Assembly (NCBI RefSeq): GCF_009687845.1
Contig: NZ_BLAD01000106.1
Coordinates: forward strand, 1-33,739
From: Acrocarpospora corrugata
GTDB lineage: Bacteria; Actinomycetota; Actinomycetes; Streptosporangiales; Streptosporangiaceae
Reading direction: 5' to 3'
DNA length: 33,739 nucleotides
The notes beneath the pieces were generated by a model. It was not told the DNA's origin. It saw only the letters and a list, made by a program, of their open reading frames with translations, and did no database searches. A program made the position numbers and the translations under genes. Positions 1 to 7,660 of this stretch are shown in pieces; the first letter of the stretch is position 1; each line of letters starts with the position of its first letter.

Positions 1-433
1 CGTCGGACACAAGACAGCATGATCGAGGATCACGTCCCGGCGATCAAACCGAGGTCGCGCCGCAGGTCACGAGATCCCGTGAATGGACACCCTGTCGGAG
101 GTCGCGAAGACCATCGTCCTTGCCCAAAACTGGGGCTGCTGACGCGGCAGCGCATTCGTGCCGCGAACCCCTTGGGGCAAGGCTTTCCAGGTGGCAGCGG
201 GGTATCCCCAGGTCGCTTCCATGAGAGCCAGTGCGGTCGATTTTCCTGTTCGAGATTCACGGAATCCTAAGCGCAGGTATTCCGGATGAGCATTTCGGAA
301 GCGTACGGAAATGAATGAATATAGCTTGTGCCCCTCTCCGCCAAATCTGTACCGGCTCCCTGGACGCCTCACGACGCCCATGTAAACGATGGTTCCTATC
401 GCAAGTGTCAGGCGAATCCAGGAGGAGACGTTC
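1..433. other. No gene recognised
   Basis: I see no convincing gene here. Open frames on both strands overlap each other and resemble no family I know. The last 20 bases hold the ribosome binding site of the Gly-His peptide gene. A decayed gene cannot be excluded. Confidence 0.4.
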
Positions 434-736
434 ATGGACCGTAAGCGACTGTCACAGCTGAGCGCAGCACTGCTCGGAGCCGCGACCCTGGTGATGGGCC
501 AGGTAGCCGAGGCGTCAGCCAGCCAGAGTCCGGTGAACACGACATCCATCAACACCTCAACGGTTTCTGCAAGGAACGCGGTGTCCCCGCTGGACCCCCC
601 TCCTCATCGCGACGGCCACGGGCATGGACACGGGCATGGACACGGGCACGGCCATGGGCACGGACACGGACACGGACACGGACACGGACACGGACACGGA
701 CACGGACACGGACACGGACACGGACACGGCCGCTAG
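434..736 (+). CDS. Secreted Gly-His repeat peptide (probable metal binder)
   Basis: A 100-residue protein with an N-terminal signal peptide (basic MDRKR, hydrophobic stretch about 9-22, cleavage probably near the AEASAS segment) and a short Ser/Thr/Asn-rich linker. The tail is 19 consecutive Gly-His dipeptides ending in Gly-Arg. The ATG at 434 is chosen because AGGAGG lies just upstream and the signal peptide begins there; an ATG 45 bases upstream is in frame but has no such site. His-rich tails of this type bind Ni, Zn or Cu, so an extracellular metal-sequestering role is inferred. The last 11 dipeptides are coded by the same hexamer (GGACAC), so the tract is prone to slippage. No neighbour is clearly linked to it. 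The family is unknown to me. Confidence 0.8.
   Translation: MDRKRLSQLSAALLGAATLVMGQVAEASASQSPVNTTSINTSTVSARNAVSPLDPPPHRDGHGHGHGHGHGHGHGHGHGHGHGHGHGHGHGHGHGHGHGR
614..727 (+). repeat. Hexanucleotide tandem repeat coding (Gly-His)19
   Basis: Nineteen hexamers of the form GGN-CAY. The first eight vary (GGC/GGG/GGA with CAC/CAT) while the last 11, from 662 to 727, are identical GGACAC units. The uniform distal block suggests recent expansion by replication slippage. Copy number may be strain-variable and could be mis-assembled. Confidence 0.9.
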
Positions 737-950
737 GCATCGGAAGGCATGAGGCGGGCTGCCGCAGGATCGTGACCTTGTGTTTGCAGCCCACCTCGGC
801 GGCCAATCGAACGGGCCGAGGACTGAAAGGCATGGGACCGAACCGGCCATTGATATTTGGTCCGCGCTGGCTTTCCGAATGAGGCATTCAACCTCCTCCG
901 GCAGGGCTGGCATATACGTGACGGTCACGACAGTTTCACTCGCGCGGATC

Positions 951-983
951 GGTGGTGGCGTTGCCCAGGGCGACGCCACCACC
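951..983. promoter_or_regulatory. Strong hairpin ahead of the methyltransferase gene
   Basis: Two arms beginning GGTGGTGGCG and ending CGCCACCACC pair over 16 bases with one G-T wobble around a single central A. It lies 26 bases before the methyltransferase start and 215 bases after the Gly-His gene. There is no T-run, so a simple intrinsic terminator is uncertain. It could be a Rho-independent stop of the kind lacking a U-tract, or a leader structure. Confidence 0.45.
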
Positions 984-1008
984 TGAATTCGGGGCTATTG
1001 TGCACCGC

Positions 1009-1647
1009 ATGCGCGTCCCCGATTGGCTCGACGACACCCGGACCTCCTACGACACGGTGGCGGTCAGCTACGCCGACCTGCTGCGCGATGCTCTCGCTGG
1101 CGCTCCGTTCCAACGGGGCATCCTGGCGCTCTTCGCCGAACTAATCCACGCCCAGGGGAACGGACCGGTCGCCGATGTCGGCTGCGGTCCAGGCCGGATC
1201 ACCGCCCACCTACACGGCATCGGCCTGGACGCGTTCGGCATCGACCTGTCACCCGCGATGATCGAGGTGGCCAGGCGGGACCATCCCGGCCTGCGCTTCG
1301 AGGTCGGCTCCATGACGGACCTCGAACTGGCCGACGGTTCTCTGACCGGCCTGCTGGCCTGGTTCTCCCTGATTCACGTCCCCGACGACCAGGTACCCAC
1401 AGTCTTCGCCGAGTTCCACCGGGTACTGCGGCCCGGCGGGGTCATATTGCTCGGCTTCCACACTGGCGACGACAGCCGACTCAAGACCGAAGGCTACGGC
1501 GGCCACCCGATGAACGTCTACGTGCACCGTCGCCCACCGGGCCGGGTCACGGACTGGCTGAACGCCGCCGGCTTCACCGTCGAAGCCGAGATGCTGCACC
1601 GCCCAGACCAGAACACCGAGGGCGCCTTCCTCTTCGCCCATCGATGA
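1009..1647 (+). CDS. Class I SAM-dependent methyltransferase
   Basis: A 212-residue Methyltransf_11/25-type Rossmann enzyme. Motif I is VADVGCGPG at residues 54-62, and the acidic residue that binds the ribose of SAM is D79 in GIDLSPAM. Motif IV-like LLAWFSLIHVP follows at about 115-125, then a VLRPGG turn typical of the family. The start at 1009 (MRVPDWLDDTRTSYDTV) gives the usual N-terminus of this actinobacterial group; GTG at 1000 is possible. The substrate is unknown, and such enzymes act on small molecules. It follows the Gly-His peptide gene by 272 bases on the same strand, but the strong hairpin between them argues against one operon. Confidence 0.88.
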   Translation: MRVPDWLDDTRTSYDTVAVSYADLLRDALAGAPFQRGILALFAELIHAQGNGPVADVGCGPGRITAHLHGIGLDAFGIDLSPAMIEVARRDHPGLRFEVGSMTDLELADGSLTGLLAWFSLIHVPDDQVPTVFAEFHRVLRPGGVILLGFHTGDDSRLKTEGYGGHPMNVYVHRRPPGRVTDWLNAAGFTVEAEMLHRPDQNTEGAFLFAHR

Positions 1648-1961
1648 GAAGCATCGATGATTGCGGCGGGCCGGACGGCTTGCTCGCCACCTTTACCTAT
1701 CAGGACACTGGCGGAAGGAATGCAGGCCGGTGGGCCAATCAAGGTCCTCGTACTGACGCTTCGGGTCGTCCTCGAAGAGCCTCGTACTGGGGCGATGACA
1801 CCGGGATGATCCGGCTTCGACCCCAACACCTACGGTGCTTCTGCCCGCGCCGCGATCATCCCGGAGTCGGAGCACCCTCGTCGGGGAGGCGAAAAGGGTT
1901 GGCCCGGCCAGCGCTCTGGCGTGGAGTATCGGCGCTTGTGGGGATGTTCAGCGTTGTGAGG
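1648..1961. other. Non-coding or degraded stretch
   Basis: No supported gene. The first bases repeat the palindrome CATCGATG twice (about 1638-1660), spanning the methyltransferase stop. The open frames here are overlaps in several phases without family resemblance. The stretch leads into a truncated zinc-ribbon fragment and the tRNA-derived att scar, so it probably belongs to the same decayed zone. Confidence 0.4.
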
Positions 1962-2087
1962 ATGCCCGAACCGCTTGTCTGTCCGAAGTGCGGGGAGACG
2001 GGTACATGGCGAGCGCAGTTCAAGTTCGGTGCTCTCGACCTGGATGAGTACGAGGTCGGCCAGAGGCTGAATTGGGACTACACGTGA
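1962..2087 (+). pseudogene. Short zinc-ribbon protein fragment
   Basis: A 41-codon frame starting MPEPLVCPKCGETGTW and continuing with a region rich in aromatic and acidic residues (FKFGALDLDEYEVGQRL). It reads like the N-terminus of a small actinobacterial zinc-ribbon protein, with one CxxC knuckle, and then stops. The second CxxC expected for a complete ribbon is absent and no clear continuation is found in the other frames. I take it as a truncated gene near the left end of the decayed element. It could instead be a genuine very small protein. Confidence 0.4.
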
Positions 2088-2321
2088 GATGTGGAAGGCG
2101 AACGCGGACATCACCGCGTGCTGGCCCAGGGTGCTCTGCCTGGGCGCGGCCGAACTGCCGGCGGCCAAGACCGGCCCCCAGGCCGCCTGCCCGGGTGCCT
2201 AGCGTAGGACCGCGAGGCGGCGCGGAGCGCCGCCTCGATGGCGGCGGAACCGTACATGCGGACGCGTTGAACGCGGCGAAGCCTGACAGCAACTGCAACC
2301 TTCGCCGTCCCTGAAGATCAA

Positions 2322-2356
2322 AATGGCCCTCTTCCCGGTCTGGGGAGAGGGCCATT
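2322..2356 (-). terminator. Intrinsic terminator beside the tRNA-Ser 3' fragment
   Basis: Arms AATGGCCCTC.TCCC and GGGGA.GAGGGCCATT pair over 15 bases with one G-T pair around a GGTCT loop. On the minus strand it is followed by TTTTGATC. It sits 6 bases from the displaced tRNA-Ser 3' half, so it is probably the original terminator of the tRNA gene before an element inserted. Confidence 0.7.
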
Positions 2357-2361
2357 GAACT

Positions 2362-2418
2362 GCGGAGGTTCGGGGATTTGAACCCCGGATGGACTTGAGA
2401 CCCAAACCGCATTAGCAG
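2362..2418 (-). repeat. tRNA-Ser 3'-half fragment, att scar (distal copy)
   Basis: 56 of 57 bases match 4425-4481, the 3' half of the intact tRNA-Ser(GCU) gene; the one difference is at 2393 versus 4456. It runs from the position after the discriminator base, through the T-arm and variable arm, and ends exactly inside the anticodon loop. Beyond that the sequences diverge completely. A duplicated tRNA 3' half in direct orientation is the classical product of integration by a tyrosine recombinase. Confidence 0.88.
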
Positions 2419-2552
2419 CTACAAGCTCGATCGTGCAGACTCGTTCGACACGGACCAACGAGCGTCCCCGGTCCTCCTGGAACGACCTGGCATCGCGGTG
2501 AACTGCAACCCGAACCGCCACCCGTCGACGGGTCCCAACCCACGGCCGCCCT

Positions 2553-3716
2553 TCACTCGCAGGACTTGAGGACCATTGTGGCGAGGTGGCGAGCAATGTC
2601 GTTGGTGTTGGTGTCTTGCACGTTGCTGAGCACGACTACCGCGATGTCATCATCGGGCAGGTACATGTTGCTCGCCGCGTAGCCCTGGAGAAGACCTGGG
2701 TGGTACCGGAGCCGGTGTCCGTGGAGCTGGTCGACGAGCCAGCCGAAGGCGTACGCGCTCGAAGGTAGGTTGAGGCAGCCATTGGAGGGGCATTTTGCCT
2801 GGGGCGTGAACGCCTGTTTGACGGTGGCGGGTGGCGCGACCAGGTGCGCGCCGAATGACCGGTCCCAGCGGACGATGTCGTCGGCGTTGGCGTAGATACC
2901 GGTCGCGGAGAACGCCTGGGAGCCGTTGATGGGCAGGGCCGGTGATCCGACCGTGAAATAGCCCCTCGCGTACCCGGCGGGCGGATTTCTCCTGCTGTAG
3001 CCGGTGTGCCGAAGGCGGAGCGGGCCGGTGATCTCGTCGTGCAATACGGTGCCGTACGGTTCGCGCGTCACCGCCTGGATGATCGCCCCGGCCAGGATGT
3101 AGCCGCTGCTGCTGTACTTCCAGCTGGTGCCGGGCTTGAAGTCCAGCGGCTTGTTCACGAACCGCTGGATGAGCTTCCTGGTCGTGGTCGGTTGCGAAAG
3201 CTTGGCATAGAAGTCGGGAAGCTCCTGGATGTCTGGGATGCCGGAAGTGTGCGTCACGATCTCGCGGATCGTGATGGGCTTCCACGCTTGCGGGCAGGTC
3301 TTGATGTACGCCGGGGAAAGATACGGGCAGACCGGGTCGTCCAGGCCAAGCAGCCCACGGTCGCGCAGCTTCAGCACGAGCATTGAGGTGAATTGCTTGG
3401 TGACCGAGGCGATCCGGAAGACCGTATCCGGCCGGTTGGGGATGCGCTTCTCTTCGTCGGCCGCGCCGGCAGCGGCACGCACCAGCACCTTGCCGTGCCG
3501 TACTACCAGGGCCGTGCCGGTGAACTTCTTCTCCTCGGCCAGATCCTGCAGGTATTCCCGCATCTCCTCAGCGGTCTCACTCAGCGGGTCCGATTTCTTG
3601 GTGGGATGGCTCGAGACGGCGGATACGGCGACGGCGGGGGTGCCCATGGGCATGGCTCCACCAGCCAGTGCGGCACCGATCGCAAGAAACCAGGCAATAT
3701 TAGGACGCTTATGCAT
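2553..3716 (-). CDS. Secreted serine hydrolase, beta-lactamase/DD-peptidase fold
   Basis: A 387-residue class C beta-lactamase-family protein (Pfam Beta-lactamase). A signal peptide covers about residues 1-33. The catalytic S-x-x-K is S104-V-T-K107. The second motif is Y201-S-S in place of Y-x-N. The third is H339-P-G, where true penicillin-binding enzymes often have KTG and many esterase/DD-peptidase relatives have HxG. GGGGGAG precedes the ATG at 3716. It may be a D-alanyl-D-alanine carboxypeptidase, esterase or peptidase of the cell surface; substrate cannot be set from sequence. It is the only intact gene inside the tRNA-Ser element and may be cargo. Confidence 0.9.
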   Translation of the reverse strand: MHKRPNIAWFLAIGAALAGGAMPMGTPAVAVSAVSSHPTKKSDPLSETAEEMREYLQDLAEEKKFTGTALVVRHGKVLVRAAAGAADEEKRIPNRPDTVFRIASVTKQFTSMLVLKLRDRGLLGLDDPVCPYLSPAYIKTCPQAWKPITIREIVTHTSGIPDIQELPDFYAKLSQPTTTRKLIQRFVNKPLDFKPGTSWKYSSSGYILAGAIIQAVTREPYGTVLHDEITGPLRLRHTGYSRRNPPAGYARGYFTVGSPALPINGSQAFSATGIYANADDIVRWDRSFGAHLVAPPATVKQAFTPQAKCPSNGCLNLPSSAYAFGWLVDQLHGHRLRYHPGLLQGYAASNMYLPDDDIAVVVLSNVQDTNTNDIARHLATMVLKSCE

Positions 3717-3890
3717 TCTCTCCCCCTGGAACGTGCCGCAGTCCCGAAATTAGGACATTTCCCGAATCGGGCGAGTGTCGTTCGGGAACGTCGGCGGGCC
3801 ATTCTTCTGGGGTTGCTTACCGTTCACTAGAGCCAGAAACGGCGATAGACGCCTTTTTCCTTCTGCATATCCCTTTGTTGGAGCTACTCG

Positions 3891-4184
3891 ATGGCAGCTG
3901 GCCATCTCACCCAAATATCAACTATTACCGAATCGACCTCCAGCCACCTCGCGCTGGCCATCGCCACAACCTCCTGGCCGATCATCTTTGCGCTGACGGT
4001 CGGCGTGGCCAGGGTTGTCCTAGTCCGCCAGATGCTGATCAGATTCCGCCGGTGCCTGGCGAGCGCTGGATCAAACTCAGGGCGGATCTTCACTGACGGG
4101 CGGGCCGCTGCGCGAGAAGTACCCGAACGAGCGCTTCGCTGTGGTGGTGAGAGCGGCGAGTCTGCCGCCGATCCGGTTCCATGA
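3891..4184 (+). CDS. Possible small membrane-protein frame running into the integrase remnant
   Basis: An open frame of 97 codons with GGAG seven bases before its ATG. Residues about 20-48 form a hydrophobic segment (LALAIATTSWPIIFALTVGV) followed by basic residues, which looks like a one-helix membrane protein of the kind found in actinomycete plasmids. From about 4085 the frame overlaps the decayed integrase in another phase, so its C-terminus is probably artificial, created by a deletion. It could be chance. Confidence 0.25.
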   Translation: MAAGHLTQISTITESTSSHLALAIATTSWPIIFALTVGVARVVLVRQMLIRFRRCLASAGSNSGRIFTDGRAAAREVPERALRCGGESGESAADPVP

Positions 4185-4329
4185 TCCGGGGCGGCTTCAA
4201 ATGATCTTGTCAGCCGGGGTGAACATAAAGGTCGTCTTGGCGACCCTCGGCCATGCGAAGTACAGCTTCACTGCTGTCACCTACGCCCATACCCTGCCTG
4301 ATCTCGCGCAGTCGGCGGCCAAGCCCTGA
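4085..4329 (+). pseudogene. int: C-terminal remnant of a phage/ICE-type tyrosine integrase
   Basis: The frame ending at 4329 reads LPPIRFHD, then a damaged patch, then AGVNIKVVLATLGHA and FTAVTYAHTLPDLAQSAA. That is the catalytic C-terminus of a tyrosine recombinase: the LGH box and the Tyr of TYAH are kept, but the HDLRH box has become HDPGR, so the catalytic Arg/His are lost. Upstream, TDGR and PLREKYPNERF lie in different phases, showing a frameshift near 4095-4105. The N-terminal two thirds are missing. It ends about 95 bases from the tRNA-Ser att site and points to it, as expected for the integrase of the element. Confidence 0.8.
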
Positions 4330-4375
4330 ACCCCGGGCGCGGCGCGGCGTGCTCAGGTCATGATCTGAAAAGTTT

Positions 4376-4419
4376 GATGGGGCTTCTCCCGAAGGTCTGC
4401 CTTCGGGAGAAGCCCCATC
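4376..4419 (-). terminator. Perfect 20-bp hairpin after tRNA-Ser
   Basis: Two 20-base arms, starting GATGGGGCTTC and ending GAAGCCCCATC, pair perfectly around a TCTG loop. On the minus strand the hairpin is followed by AAACTTTTC. It lies 6 bases from the discriminator base of the tRNA gene and is likely its present terminator, brought in by the element. It would also stop plus-strand reading from the integrase remnant. Confidence 0.82.
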
Positions 4420-4425
4420 TTTGGG

Positions 4426-4515
4426 CGGAGGTTCGGGGATTTGAACCCCGGATGGGCTTGAGACCCAAACCGCATTAGCAGTGCGGCGCCATAGACCGGA
4501 CTAGGCGAAACCTCC
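4426..4515 (-). tRNA. tRNA-Ser (anticodon GCU)
   Basis: A 90-base class II tRNA on the minus strand. Acceptor arms GGAGGTT/AACCTCC; D-stem GCC/GGC; anticodon stem CCGCA/TGCGG with loop CTGCTAA, giving anticodon GCT; long variable arm with stem TGGG/GCCCA; T-stem CGGGG/CCCCG with loop TTCAAAT. Discriminator G; CCA is not encoded. Its 3' half is part of the direct repeat that bounds the decayed element. Confidence 0.96.
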
Positions 4516-4629: not shown

Positions 4630-4672
4630 GCGCACAGCCCTTATCCACAGGCTGTGGATAAGGGCTGTGCGC
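4630..4672. repeat. 43-bp palindrome with two inverted DnaA boxes
   Basis: Two 21-base arms pair perfectly about a central G at 4651. Each arm contains a consensus DnaA box, TTATCCACA at 4641-4649 and its complement TGTGGATAA at 4653-4661. The arms start GCGCACAGCCC. It may be a DnaA-binding site, for example a titration site or plasmid-origin relic, or a hairpin terminator for the minus-strand YceI gene, since TTTGT follows on that strand. Confidence 0.75.
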
Positions 4673-5505: not shown

Positions 5506-5997
5506 ATGGATGCTTTCGAAGATCCTCGGCTGACAGCGATGGGCCTGTTCGCTGAGGTTTATACCGGCATAGCGGACAAGGCCAACGCCGGGTTCGCCAA
5601 GGCGGGGCTGTCGGACGTCGACTTCGAGACGTTGATCCGACTGGCCCGGTCTCCTCGACAGAGCCTGCGGATGAGCGATCTCGCGGCACAGACGTCGCTG
5701 TCGACGAGCGGAATCACCCGCGTCGTGGACCGGCTGGAGCGGGAAGGCTTAGTGGTACGCGAAGCGTGCGCGACCGACCGGCGCGCGTCGTACGCGGTGA
5801 TCACCGATGCGGGCAACGCACGGCTTCAGCAGGTGCTCCCCCAGCACCTGGAGGACATCGAACTCTGGTTCACCGGCCTGCTGTCCTCCGAGCAGCTCAC
5901 GGCATTTCTGGACACGCTCCGGCTTATCCGTGATGTTGTACGCCCCTGCGCGACCGCCGGAGTGATCAACCCAAGGATCGACGCTGCTCAGGGATGA
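5506..5997 (+). CDS. MarR family transcriptional regulator
   Basis: 163 residues with the MarR winged helix at about 40-105: LRMSDLAAQTSLSTSGITRV is the recognition helix region, then REGLVVREACATDRRASYAV is the wing. Flanking helices for dimerisation are present. No ribosome binding site precedes either GTG 5500 or ATG 5506; the -10-like TAGACT just upstream favours leaderless initiation at 5506. The divergent YceI gene is the likely target. The 3' end overlaps the convergent sigma factor gene by 32 bases. Ligand unknown; C87 could be redox-sensitive, which is only a guess. Confidence 0.9.
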   Translation: MDAFEDPRLTAMGLFAEVYTGIADKANAGFAKAGLSDVDFETLIRLARSPRQSLRMSDLAAQTSLSTSGITRVVDRLEREGLVVREACATDRRASYAVITDAGNARLQQVLPQHLEDIELWFTGLLSSEQLTAFLDTLRLIRDVVRPCATAGVINPRIDAAQG

Positions 5998-6466
5998 GCA
6001 GGTCCCCCCGGAGTTTCGCCATCGCCCGGGACACCGTGCTCTTCACGGTCCCCACGCTGATCCCGAGCGCTTTGGCGATCTCGGGTTCCGTCATGTCCTC
6101 GTAGTACCGCAGAACGATCGCCGTACGCTGCCGGACCGGTAGCCGGCTCAGCGCGTGTTCCAACTCGTCGTACCGATGACCGGGGTCCTGATAGACGGGA
6201 ATGTCAGGAATTTCGTCGGATGGATACTCTTCCAGCTTTCGCCGGCGCCACCACGAGATGTTGATATTGACCATCGCCCGCCGTACGTATCCGTCGAGTG
6301 CGGCGCGATCCTGAATCCGGTCCCACGCCACGAAGGTCTTGGTGAGCGCGGCCTGCAAAAGATCTTCGGCGTCCGCCGGGTTGCCCGTCAGCTGGTTCGC
6401 CGCGCGCAGCAGCGCCGCCCCGCGAGTCACCACATACTCGCGGAACTCCTCGTGGCTTGCGATCAT
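5966..6466 (-). CDS. SigE family RNA polymerase sigma factor (ECF type)
   Basis: 166 residues. Region 2 spans about 18-78 (LTGNPADAEDLLQAALTKTF, then NINISWWRRRK). Region 4 spans about 103-155 with RLPVRQRTAIVLRYYEDMTE and the helix-turn-helix IAKALGISVGTVKSTVSRAM. The ATG at 6466 gives family length; the frame is open to a TTG at 6538 with no better ribosome site. No anti-sigma gene is adjacent, which is common in this actinobacterial sigma group. It converges on and overlaps marR, and is divergent from the Cys-rich barrel/MauE operon over about 240 bases, so it might drive that operon. Confidence 0.9.
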   Translation of the reverse strand: MIASHEEFREYVVTRGAALLRAANQLTGNPADAEDLLQAALTKTFVAWDRIQDRAALDGYVRRAMVNINISWWRRRKLEEYPSDEIPDIPVYQDPGHRYDELEHALSRLPVRQRTAIVLRYYEDMTEPEIAKALGISVGTVKSTVSRAMAKLRGDLLIPEQRRSLG

Positions 6467-6649
6467 GCGAATCAGAATCTCAGCCGGAGCCGTTCGCCCG
6501 GCCGAACCGGAATCTAGGTTTCGTTCACCTGACCGCAAAGATCACGCAAGCCCGCTGACACCTTGAACCCGGTTCTTTTCGGGTACGGCGCAGCCGGTTG
6601 GGGTCGGGTTTGCCCTGAGTCGGGGTCGCCGGATTCCACCAGGAGTGGG

Positions 6650-6684
6650 AATTCTGCTACCACACAGGACCCAGCGCCAGAATT
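6650..6684. promoter_or_regulatory. Inverted repeat ahead of the barrel/MauE operon
   Basis: AATTCTG (6650-6656) and CAGAATT (6678-6684) are perfect inverted arms 21 bases apart, ending 25 bases before the GTG start of the operon. The block is more AT-rich than its surroundings and may hold an operator. Confidence 0.3.
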
Positions 6685-6709
6685 ATGCCTCTATCAGGAG
6701 AGACATCAT

Positions 6710-7660
6710 GTGAGGCTGGTGGGCGTGGCGATGCATGTTGAGCGTAGGCGCGCGCTGGCGGCAGCCGTACTGGGTCGGGATCCTGATCCGCCGCGGCTGA
6801 CGGCCGACGACGGCGTGATGCTGGACGCGGTCAGTGGCGTGATTCTGGACGTCAGTCCGCACCTGATCATCGTGGAGACCGATGACGGTGACGAGGAGCG
6901 GCTCGTGATCGCGCCGTGGGCGACCGCGTGGCGGGGTGGGGCGACGGCTCCGGCGGATCTTCCTATCGGGTCCCGTGTGATCATCAGGGCGCTGCGGTCG
7001 GGCAAGGTGGTGGATCGGATCTGGGCGGACATCACCCGGATGACGGGCATCATCCGGTCGGTCAGCGGCCGGACCGACCTCGCTGTCGAGCTCGACTGCG
7101 GGCCACATCGCGGCCGGCGGTCGATCGTCATCCCTTACCGATCGTCTGGGCGGGTTCGGGTGCGGTATCCCAAGCTGGAGCCGGGCTATCTTTTCGACGC
7201 TATCGGCGTGATCCGCGATGGTGCTCCCCTCGTTCAGCTCCCGGCCACGTCGCAGCCCGCCTATCGGGCCGGATCGGTGCCGCCACCGCCCCCGGCCTAC
7301 GGCGGCGCCCAGTCGAAGATCTCCGGGACGGCGGTGTGGTCGGACTTCACCGATCGGGGTGCGGCCTATGCGATGTTGGAGCGCTCCGACAGTGGCTGCG
7401 AGGATGCGGGCGTCTCCTGCGCGGGGCTGCCCTATCTGGCGCTCGGGTCGATGTTGTATGTGCGCAATGTCTGCGCGGGGCGGGCGACGGCGCTGCCGAT
7501 CGTGGCGTGTGGCTGCATGGCGGGGCGGTTCTGCGATCGATGTGTGGAGTGTGGGACCTCGCCACGCGGCCGGATCGTGGAACTCTCGGCCACGTCCTAC
7601 GTCGAGCTCGGCGGGGACCTGATCAAGGGGTGCTTCAACGCGCGGGTGGGGTTGACGTGA
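6710..7660 (+). CDS. Cys-rich protein with RlpA/expansin-like double-psi barrel end
   Basis: 316 residues from the GTG at 6710, selected because AGGAGAG sits seven bases upstream. Residues about 36-175 look like two small beta-barrel (OB/KOW-like) modules. A Pro-rich linker follows (190-197). The C-terminal 110 residues resemble a double-psi beta-barrel: SGTAVWSDFTDRGAAYAM, LPYLALGSMLYVRN, then GRIVELSATSYVELGG, which parallels the GR.IDLS...LGG signature of RlpA/expansin proteins. Ten cysteines are present, nine of them at 230, 237, 255, 267, 269, 275, 278, 281 and 308, suggesting disulfides or metal binding. No signal peptide is seen, so its location is unclear. The MauE gene follows after 34 bases. 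Barrel assignment is by pattern only. Confidence 0.65.
   Translation: MRLVGVAMHVERRRALAAAVLGRDPDPPRLTADDGVMLDAVSGVILDVSPHLIIVETDDGDEERLVIAPWATAWRGGATAPADLPIGSRVIIRALRSGKVVDRIWADITRMTGIIRSVSGRTDLAVELDCGPHRGRRSIVIPYRSSGRVRVRYPKLEPGYLFDAIGVIRDGAPLVQLPATSQPAYRAGSVPPPPPAYGGAQSKISGTAVWSDFTDRGAAYAMLERSDSGCEDAGVSCAGLPYLALGSMLYVRNVCAGRATALPIVACGCMAGRFCDRCVECGTSPRGRIVELSATSYVELGGDLIKGCFNARVGLT

Follow-up and report, generated by a model that had tools for sequence, protein, structure and literature searches.

Probable stacked and mostly deleted remains of mobile elements at a tRNA-Ser(GCU) gene of Acrocarpospora corrugata

Introduction

How many mobile elements have contributed to the short stretch of DNA that lies between an intact tRNA-Ser(GCU) gene and a displaced copy of its own 3′ half in Acrocarpospora corrugata? 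The window (the whole stretch of DNA that was analysed, 33,739 nucleotides) is the entire contig C106 of genome G000, which comprises 9.27 Mb; the contig begins 2.4 kb left of the repeat, and the outer left flank lies outside the sequence. The available part of PMC3218068 describes AICEs (actinomycete integrative and conjugative elements) in the 3′ ends of tRNA genes, as well as tandem AICEs with integrases of different sub-families. A sequence-only reading of the locus had proposed a pSAM2-type scar, produced by one element that shrank to about 2 kb. The evidence described below suggests a different origin: the locus looks like what is left of at least two mobile elements, stacked at one tRNA gene and for the most part deleted.

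The tRNA gene and its repeated half

The target gene, the two repeat copies and the hairpin beside each copy are as follows.

4424..4515, minus strand: intact tRNA-Ser(GCU), the target gene (ARAGORN)
4425..4481, minus strand: right repeat copy, the tRNA 3′ half, attachment core adjoining the clade I integrase relic
2362..2418, minus strand: left repeat copy, the displaced tRNA-Ser 3′ half
2322..2356, minus strand: left terminator hairpin, of the type found directly 3′ of the tRNA in congeners (−26.4 kcal/mol, z −4.1)
4376..4419, minus strand: right terminator hairpin (fold −43.5 kcal/mol, z −9.2)

The Rfam tRNA model places a tRNA-Ser at 4426–4515 (54.4 bits), and the gene is 98–99% identical to its counterparts in four congeners and 100% identical to that of G036. 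A direct repeat of the tRNA 3′ half, broken in the anticodon loop and accompanied by a hairpin at each copy, had been noticed from the letters alone, and each of these observations is borne out: 2362–2418 and 4425–4481 are identical at 56 of 57 bp (98%), the repeat has its first base at tRNA position 35, where the anticodon loop begins (located by hand on the sequence), and both hairpins fold stably, being unlike each other in sequence. The inner boundary of the right copy coincides with that of the elements in G202 and G012. When the genome was queried with 91 bp of the tRNA, two matches were obtained at E ≤ 0.001, and these are the two repeat copies. As the copies are a tRNA gene and its half, chance is not at issue for the 57-bp repeat; a shuffling control (20 shuffles, 34–54 of 57 positions against the 56 observed) mixed the sequence insufficiently and was dropped as a null.

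The left end

The left copy is followed by sequence of a recurrent kind and is flanked on both sides by the same short motif.

2419..2524, plus strand: element-side (P′) arm of an AICE-type attachment site, matched in family genomes
2501..2510, plus strand: AACTGCAACC, candidate AICE arm-type site, +83 from the left core, at the same offset in G129 and G195
2291..2300, plus strand: AACTGCAACC, −71 from the left core, at the same offset in G129

A query comprising 2415–2552 was matched in at least 30 of 200 genomes of the family Streptosporangiaceae, the window's own included, and this count is a lower bound because the arm was missed in G003, G036, and G026, though visible there by alignment. 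The P′ arm directly follows a half tRNA in 15 of the 29 other loci scanned, five of these halves consisting of only the last 17–21 bases. Over both strands of the 33.7-kb contig, exact AACTGCAACC occurs only at 2291 and 2501, flanking the left core, and it is absent from the right end of the window even when one mismatch is allowed. The same motif lies at fixed distances in other elements: in G129 it is found, exact, at +83/+95 after the core and at −83/−71 before it; G195, for which the evidence is an intact integrase, the element's other genes being unscanned, has the same offsets with one mismatch at −71; G145 has the motif at +94/+106 and −82/−70, and G194 has one site per side with a mismatch. 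Among 38 units, the motif (with at most one mismatch) is present on both sides in 15, on the left only in seven, one of which is the window, on the right only in four, and on neither side in 12. Comparison of the arms by longest common substring was noisy except for the motifs.

The site at 2291 is the probable integrase-side arm of a third, older AICE, and the left copy (2362..2418) is the probable junction between the end of this older AICE and the end of the AICE that carried the hydrolase. Farther to the left, window positions 2137–2234 are similar (80–86%) to L175 (G121), L135 (G109), and L182 (G192), which are loci with AICE-type ends, and judging from these matches the left flank of the window may be element-derived too. 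Positions 389–736 hold a small ORF that starts with a leader-like sequence and ends in a long tail of HG repeats.

The right end

The right copy adjoins an integrase remnant and a motif of another kind.

4054..4329, plus strand: C-terminal relic of a clade I tyrosine integrase (tblastn and profile)
4349..4355, plus strand: GTGCTCA, candidate arm-type site of the clade I integrase, 76 bp before the core

The ruined tyrosine-integrase C-terminus previously read beside the intact tRNA is confirmed by its similarity to the G132 integrase (tblastn E 5.6e-25, window 4054–4323) and by its damaged conserved RH region, which reads ‘FHDPGRLQ’ instead of ‘FHDLRHCAAT’. Pfam detects the relic weakly (PF00589, E 0.03, 14.6 bits, below the cut-off of 27.1). 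The relic scores 88.9 bits against a clade I profile and 14.4 bits against a clade II profile, the former built from six sequences chosen as the best matches of the relic, which favours the clade I score, and the latter from 11 sequences. Thirty-five sequences entered the profile comparison, namely the window, A. phusangensis, and 33 of 37 loci, from which L214 and L220–L222 were left out. The GTGCTCA 7-mer, a single 7-base site in the window, lies at −76 there and at both −75 and −86 in each of G132 and G202; the arm motifs of G012 and G204, located at −76/−65 and −90/−79, differ from it. On these features, the right end of the window looks like the end of a prophage. Because the left copy carries AICE arm motifs and the right copy adjoins an integrase of another clade with a motif of its own, the two 57-bp copies probably mark the outer limits of stacked elements that a deletion has joined, rather than one attL/attR pair.

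Two integrase clades sharing tRNA-Ser(GCU)

Intact relatives of both ends are found in the same tRNA gene elsewhere in the family. With the relic as the query, open clade I integrase frames of 418–501 aa and 55–58% identity were recovered from six genomes; the best four matches after the window itself (G132, G012, G204, and G202) adjoin tRNA-Ser(GCU), and the fifth and sixth frames lie at contig ends. Over all 29 loci scanned outside the window, eight are at tRNA-Ser(GCU), six at another tRNA, and 15 at no tRNA. The half-tRNA partner is located at a distance of 39 kb in G012, 57 kb in G202, and 12.5 kb in G132, and was not found for G204 and G154 within the stretches examined. Phage-gene matches are present in G012 (portal and capsid) and in G202 (YqaJ, RecT, and capsid), and these two elements are therefore prophages. 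Each of them has arm pairs that agree, by eye, between its own two ends, namely TTGTGCTCAC and CGTGCTCAC in G202 and GGACTCAC and GGCCTCAC in G012, and the clade I motif pairs on the integrase side are spaced by 11 bp.

The clade II C-terminus, taken from the relics of G036 and G026, is matched in 75 of 200 family genomes at E ≤ 0.01 and in none of the five Acrocarpospora genomes, and an intact AICE of this type is not known from the genus. Of 30 clade II loci examined, 25 adjoin an intact tRNA-Ser(GCU) and the other five a half copy, which is partial in one case and about 1 kb off in another. The intact clade II elements of G129 and G145 possess RepSA, FtsK/SpoIIIE, and the integrase, which is the gene set of pSAM2-type AICEs. 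Defence-like cargo was observed in such tRNA-Ser(GCU) AICEs (L217 and L219), comprising Shedu SduA and an AbiEii-like AAA protein in G129 and a NACHT NTPase in G145.

Ends of both kinds also occur together. In the 12.5-kb unit of G132, the left end is AICE-type and the right one carries an open 418-aa frame of a clade I integrase, a mixture for which a mosaic element would also account; no phage family was detected in the three ORFs of this unit that were scanned. In G275, a 1.8-kb clade I unit at the tRNA, the ends of which share a 20-bp motif pair, stands beside a clade II relic unit, and this layout is the arrangement expected before a fusion of the window's kind. A 52-kb stretch of G361 (L206/L207, G361:C1:7539801-7591926) holds five half copies in addition to an intact tRNA-Ser(GCU), which probably represent five stacked units in one genome.

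Empty and occupied sites in Acrocarpospora

Four other Acrocarpospora genomes were compared: A. phusangensis (G003), and A. pleiomorpha, A. macrocephala, and A. catenulata (G001, G002, and G004). The earlier reading had predicted that, in relatives lacking the insert, the left hairpin should directly follow an undivided tRNA-Ser, and this is what is observed; the left-type hairpin lies directly 3′ of the undivided gene in G001 and G002 (95–96% over 105 bp) and, less alike, in G004 (88% over 107 bp). The sites of G001 and G002 are not pristine, as a further short relic is visible by eye left of the hairpin. The intact tRNA of the window probably now uses an element-borne 3′ half and hairpin, as had been proposed; the 3′ half of the tRNA-Ser(GCU) gene was probably supplied by the youngest element. 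Synteny on the 5′ side of the tRNA extends to all 14 relatives compared (14 of 17 loci; L069, L070, and L072 were left out), and window positions 1–2275 could be aligned to none of the 14.

A. phusangensis carries an insert of about 2.3 kb with the same hydrolase gene, and both of its flanks are common to G001 and G002. The AICE motif is found at +70 (one mismatch) and −73 (exact) at the ends of this insert, which also contains a clade II integrase relic (23.1 bits), and about 130 bp intervene within the left tRNA half. Together, the comparisons with these relatives support an insertion at tRNA-Ser(GCU).

On the other side of the tRNA gene, 115 bp upstream, positions 4630–4672 of the window form a near-perfect 43-bp palindrome with two inverted TTATCCACA motifs, which we take to be DnaA-box-like. 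The palindrome is identical by eye in G001, G002, and G003, the flanks of which are 87–89% alike, and among 11 other relatives one TTATCCACA motif is kept in five and none is present within 340 bp in six. It may serve as the terminator of the YceI gene or as a DnaA-binding site.

The serine hydrolase

The only cargo gene of the window unit, and the region that travels with it, are the following.

2553..3716, minus strand: serine hydrolase of the beta-lactamase family (PF00144, Pfam E 1.8e-64), probable AICE cargo
3717..3930, minus strand: upstream region of about 215 bp that accompanies the hydrolase gene in other genomes

The hydrolase is probably secreted, its leader having been judged by eye. 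The dN/dS values of four pairs that include the window copy are 0.31–0.55, and the constraint on the gene is purifying and moderate, not strong. Each of the five Acrocarpospora genomes has one copy at E ≤ 1e-60, two of them at tRNA-Ser(GCU) and three elsewhere. The hydrolase was considered as a core gene of this place, an arrangement that would have spoken against an element origin, and was rejected as such; it lies at the tRNA in only two of the five genomes and elsewhere in the other three.

The hydrolase tree joins the copies of the window and A. phusangensis and separates them from the three copies elsewhere (100/99), whereas the core tree places the window nearer to A. pleiomorpha and A. 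macrocephala (93/96). The disagreement of the trees implies that the insert dates far back in the genus and has disappeared from some lines, or that it was exchanged; for the lines of A. pleiomorpha and A. macrocephala, loss of the insert, or transfer, must be assumed.

When the A. pleiomorpha hydrolase locus was compared with 13 others, it shared parts of a block of about 1.4 kb (the gene and at most 215 bp upstream), and nothing common was found outside this block; A. macrocephala and A. catenulata have some additional downstream sequence in common at their hydrolase loci. The surroundings of the gene with its upstream region of about 215 bp (L032, L034, and L053, around 5785–7180) differ between A. 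pleiomorpha and the pair A. macrocephala/A. catenulata. Within about 6 kb on each side of the hydrolase, these three loci contain no tRNA and no match to a clade I or II integrase at E ≤ 1e-3, and the same flanks show no convincing bracketing repeat, with two exact 15-mers in L053 and none in L032 and L034.

Alternative explanations

One alternative is the in-place reduction of one AICE to about 2 kb, with the 57-bp copies as the attL and attR of that element. The paired half tRNA, the integrase tail pointing towards the tRNA, and the hydrolase in between agree with such a history, relics with AICE motifs at both ends do exist in G036 and G026, and comparable relics in Streptomyces are described in the available part of PMC9513070. 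However, the integrase tail belongs to the other clade, the right end is devoid of an AICE arm motif, and A. phusangensis retains an AICE-type right end next to the same hydrolase. On the mismatch of the ends in both profile scores and arm motifs, a single shrunken element is largely refuted and is considered unlikely. Of the pSAM2-type scar originally proposed at tRNA-Ser(GCU), the left side, with its AICE arm motifs, stands; the idea of one element reduced to about 2 kb does not. Less probable still is one mosaic element that had swapped its own integrase module for one of phage type and decayed afterwards. G132 shows the same mixture of an AICE-type left end and a clade I integrase at the right, but the motifs of the two ends agree in G202 and G012, and a mosaic with mismatched ends should fail to integrate and would be dead on formation; this history is given very little weight.

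Another possibility is that units of 1–3 kb, that of the hydrolase included, are non-autonomous cassettes resembling CIMEs, which are cis-mobilizable elements, and that they are moved by an AICE integrase acting in trans or in cis, the window copy having lost its right end; such a reading may coexist with the preferred one. A search for the junction pattern matched 84 of 341 genomes, against 19 matches in a backward control, so some of the one-mismatch matches may be due to chance; G000 and G002–G004 gave no match and G001 gave one. In the spacing measurement, which left out G235, G236, and G242 of the 84 (their sole match was mismatched in the last bases; the similar G015 was kept), short spacings proved recurrent, with 16 under 3 kb outside the window as counted by hand, and the AICE motif is present on both sides in eight of 19 tested units under 3 kb, A. 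phusangensis among them. Nevertheless, the clade II relics of short units start at varying positions (256, 262, 356, 383, 416, 434, 436, and 447 of 464, the last three being weak), and several short units are without any clade II relic, which is what independent deletions would leave and therefore speaks against cassettes. Moreover, the window and A. phusangensis are about as alike in the hydrolase block (87.6%) as in the core flank (87.1%), which indicates no recent movement. Mobile mini-cassettes thus gain no support from the truncation points of the integrase or from the block and core-flank identities, and the cassette reading is judged improbable. The same low credence applies to the wider idea that tRNA-Ser(GCU) of the Streptosporangiaceae hosts many single-cargo units of about 1–3 kb with AICE arms at both ends that integrases of resident AICEs can still mobilise, the hydrolase unit, which has both arms in A. 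phusangensis, being one and its window copy captured by a later phage. The short units are better regarded as products of decay, although there is a low probability that resident AICEs mobilise some of them.

Proposed history of the locus

The best explanation, which is also the simplest history and to which we assign a probability of roughly 0.8, is the insertion of an AICE, then of the hydrolase AICE and later of a phage-like element, followed by a fusing deletion. What kind of end lies on each side, which sites are empty or occupied, and the presence of intact relatives of either kind in this tRNA gene are directly observed; we infer from them the order of events and the fusing deletion, of which no intermediate was seen in Acrocarpospora. 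In the proposed sequence, an old AICE would have left only its right end, consisting of an arm motif, a hairpin, and a tRNA 3′ half. A second AICE of this same pSAM2 type, carrying the hydrolase, would then have inserted before the split of the window species and A. phusangensis. Subsequently, an element of the unrelated clade, most likely a temperate phage, would have inserted in the window lineage and given the tRNA its present 3′ half and hairpin. Finally, the body and the left end of this element would have been lost by a deletion that also took away the right end of the hydrolase AICE, so that the integrase tail came to adjoin sequence upstream of the hydrolase. The remaining unit is very likely immobile, and the hydrolase would have been retained as a host gene.

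Relation to known elements

The left end of the window is like that of pSAM2-type AICEs, of which two intact relatives in the same tRNA carry RepSA (the pSAM2 replication initiator), FtsK/SpoIIIE, and a tyrosine integrase. The window differs from them in retaining only attachment ends and cargo: its three scanned ORFs contain no RepSA-like replication initiator, no FtsK/SpoIIIE-type transfer protein, and no phage structural gene, and there is no integrase of the AICE clade. With respect to the tyrosine integrase and tRNA 3′-end attachment site that mark an AICE, the window shows an AICE-type arm at the left end and an integrase relic of another clade. The right end resembles the Streptosporangiaceae prophages in tRNA-Ser(GCU) (G012 and G202) in its integrase clade, its tRNA half, and a motif near the G202 offset, whereas the scanned ORFs hold no phage gene except the integrase tail. 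With CIMEs the window has in common att-like ends without a whole integrase; matching attachment sites were not found, the arm motifs of the two ends being different and apparently belonging to two integrases, neither of which alone would be expected to mobilise the unit. The term CIME itself occurs in the abstract of PMC10767825.

The features of a decayed accretion array are present, namely two half-tRNA copies, ends of different elements, and a partial integrase. According to the available part of PMC9513070, AICEs with different integrases accrete at one tRNA-Arg in Streptomyces, and their decay leaves behind two repeats with cargo and a partial integrase. The window is like these in the partial integrase and cargo between two direct repeats and in the stacking at one tRNA; in the decay example given in that part of PMC9513070, however, the remains relate to one AICE, whereas the right end of the window belongs to a clade found in prophages and its repeats come from different elements. 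Among the papers listed by a literature search, none had a title or abstract opening on Streptosporangiaceae tRNA-Ser(GCU) elements. Accretion and decay at tRNA sites are already in print for Streptomyces, and the window scar is ordinary in kind and unusually readable; in our judgement, its only unusual point is the mixture of an AICE end with a prophage end.

Significance

Paired repeats of a tRNA half do not necessarily bound a single element. Fixed distances between the core and the arm motifs assign each end to its integrase, by which stacked and fused relics become separable, and the assignment of arm motifs is a cheap check on the calling of islands from repeats only. For the Streptosporangiaceae, tRNA-Ser(GCU) emerges as a target common to AICEs and prophages.
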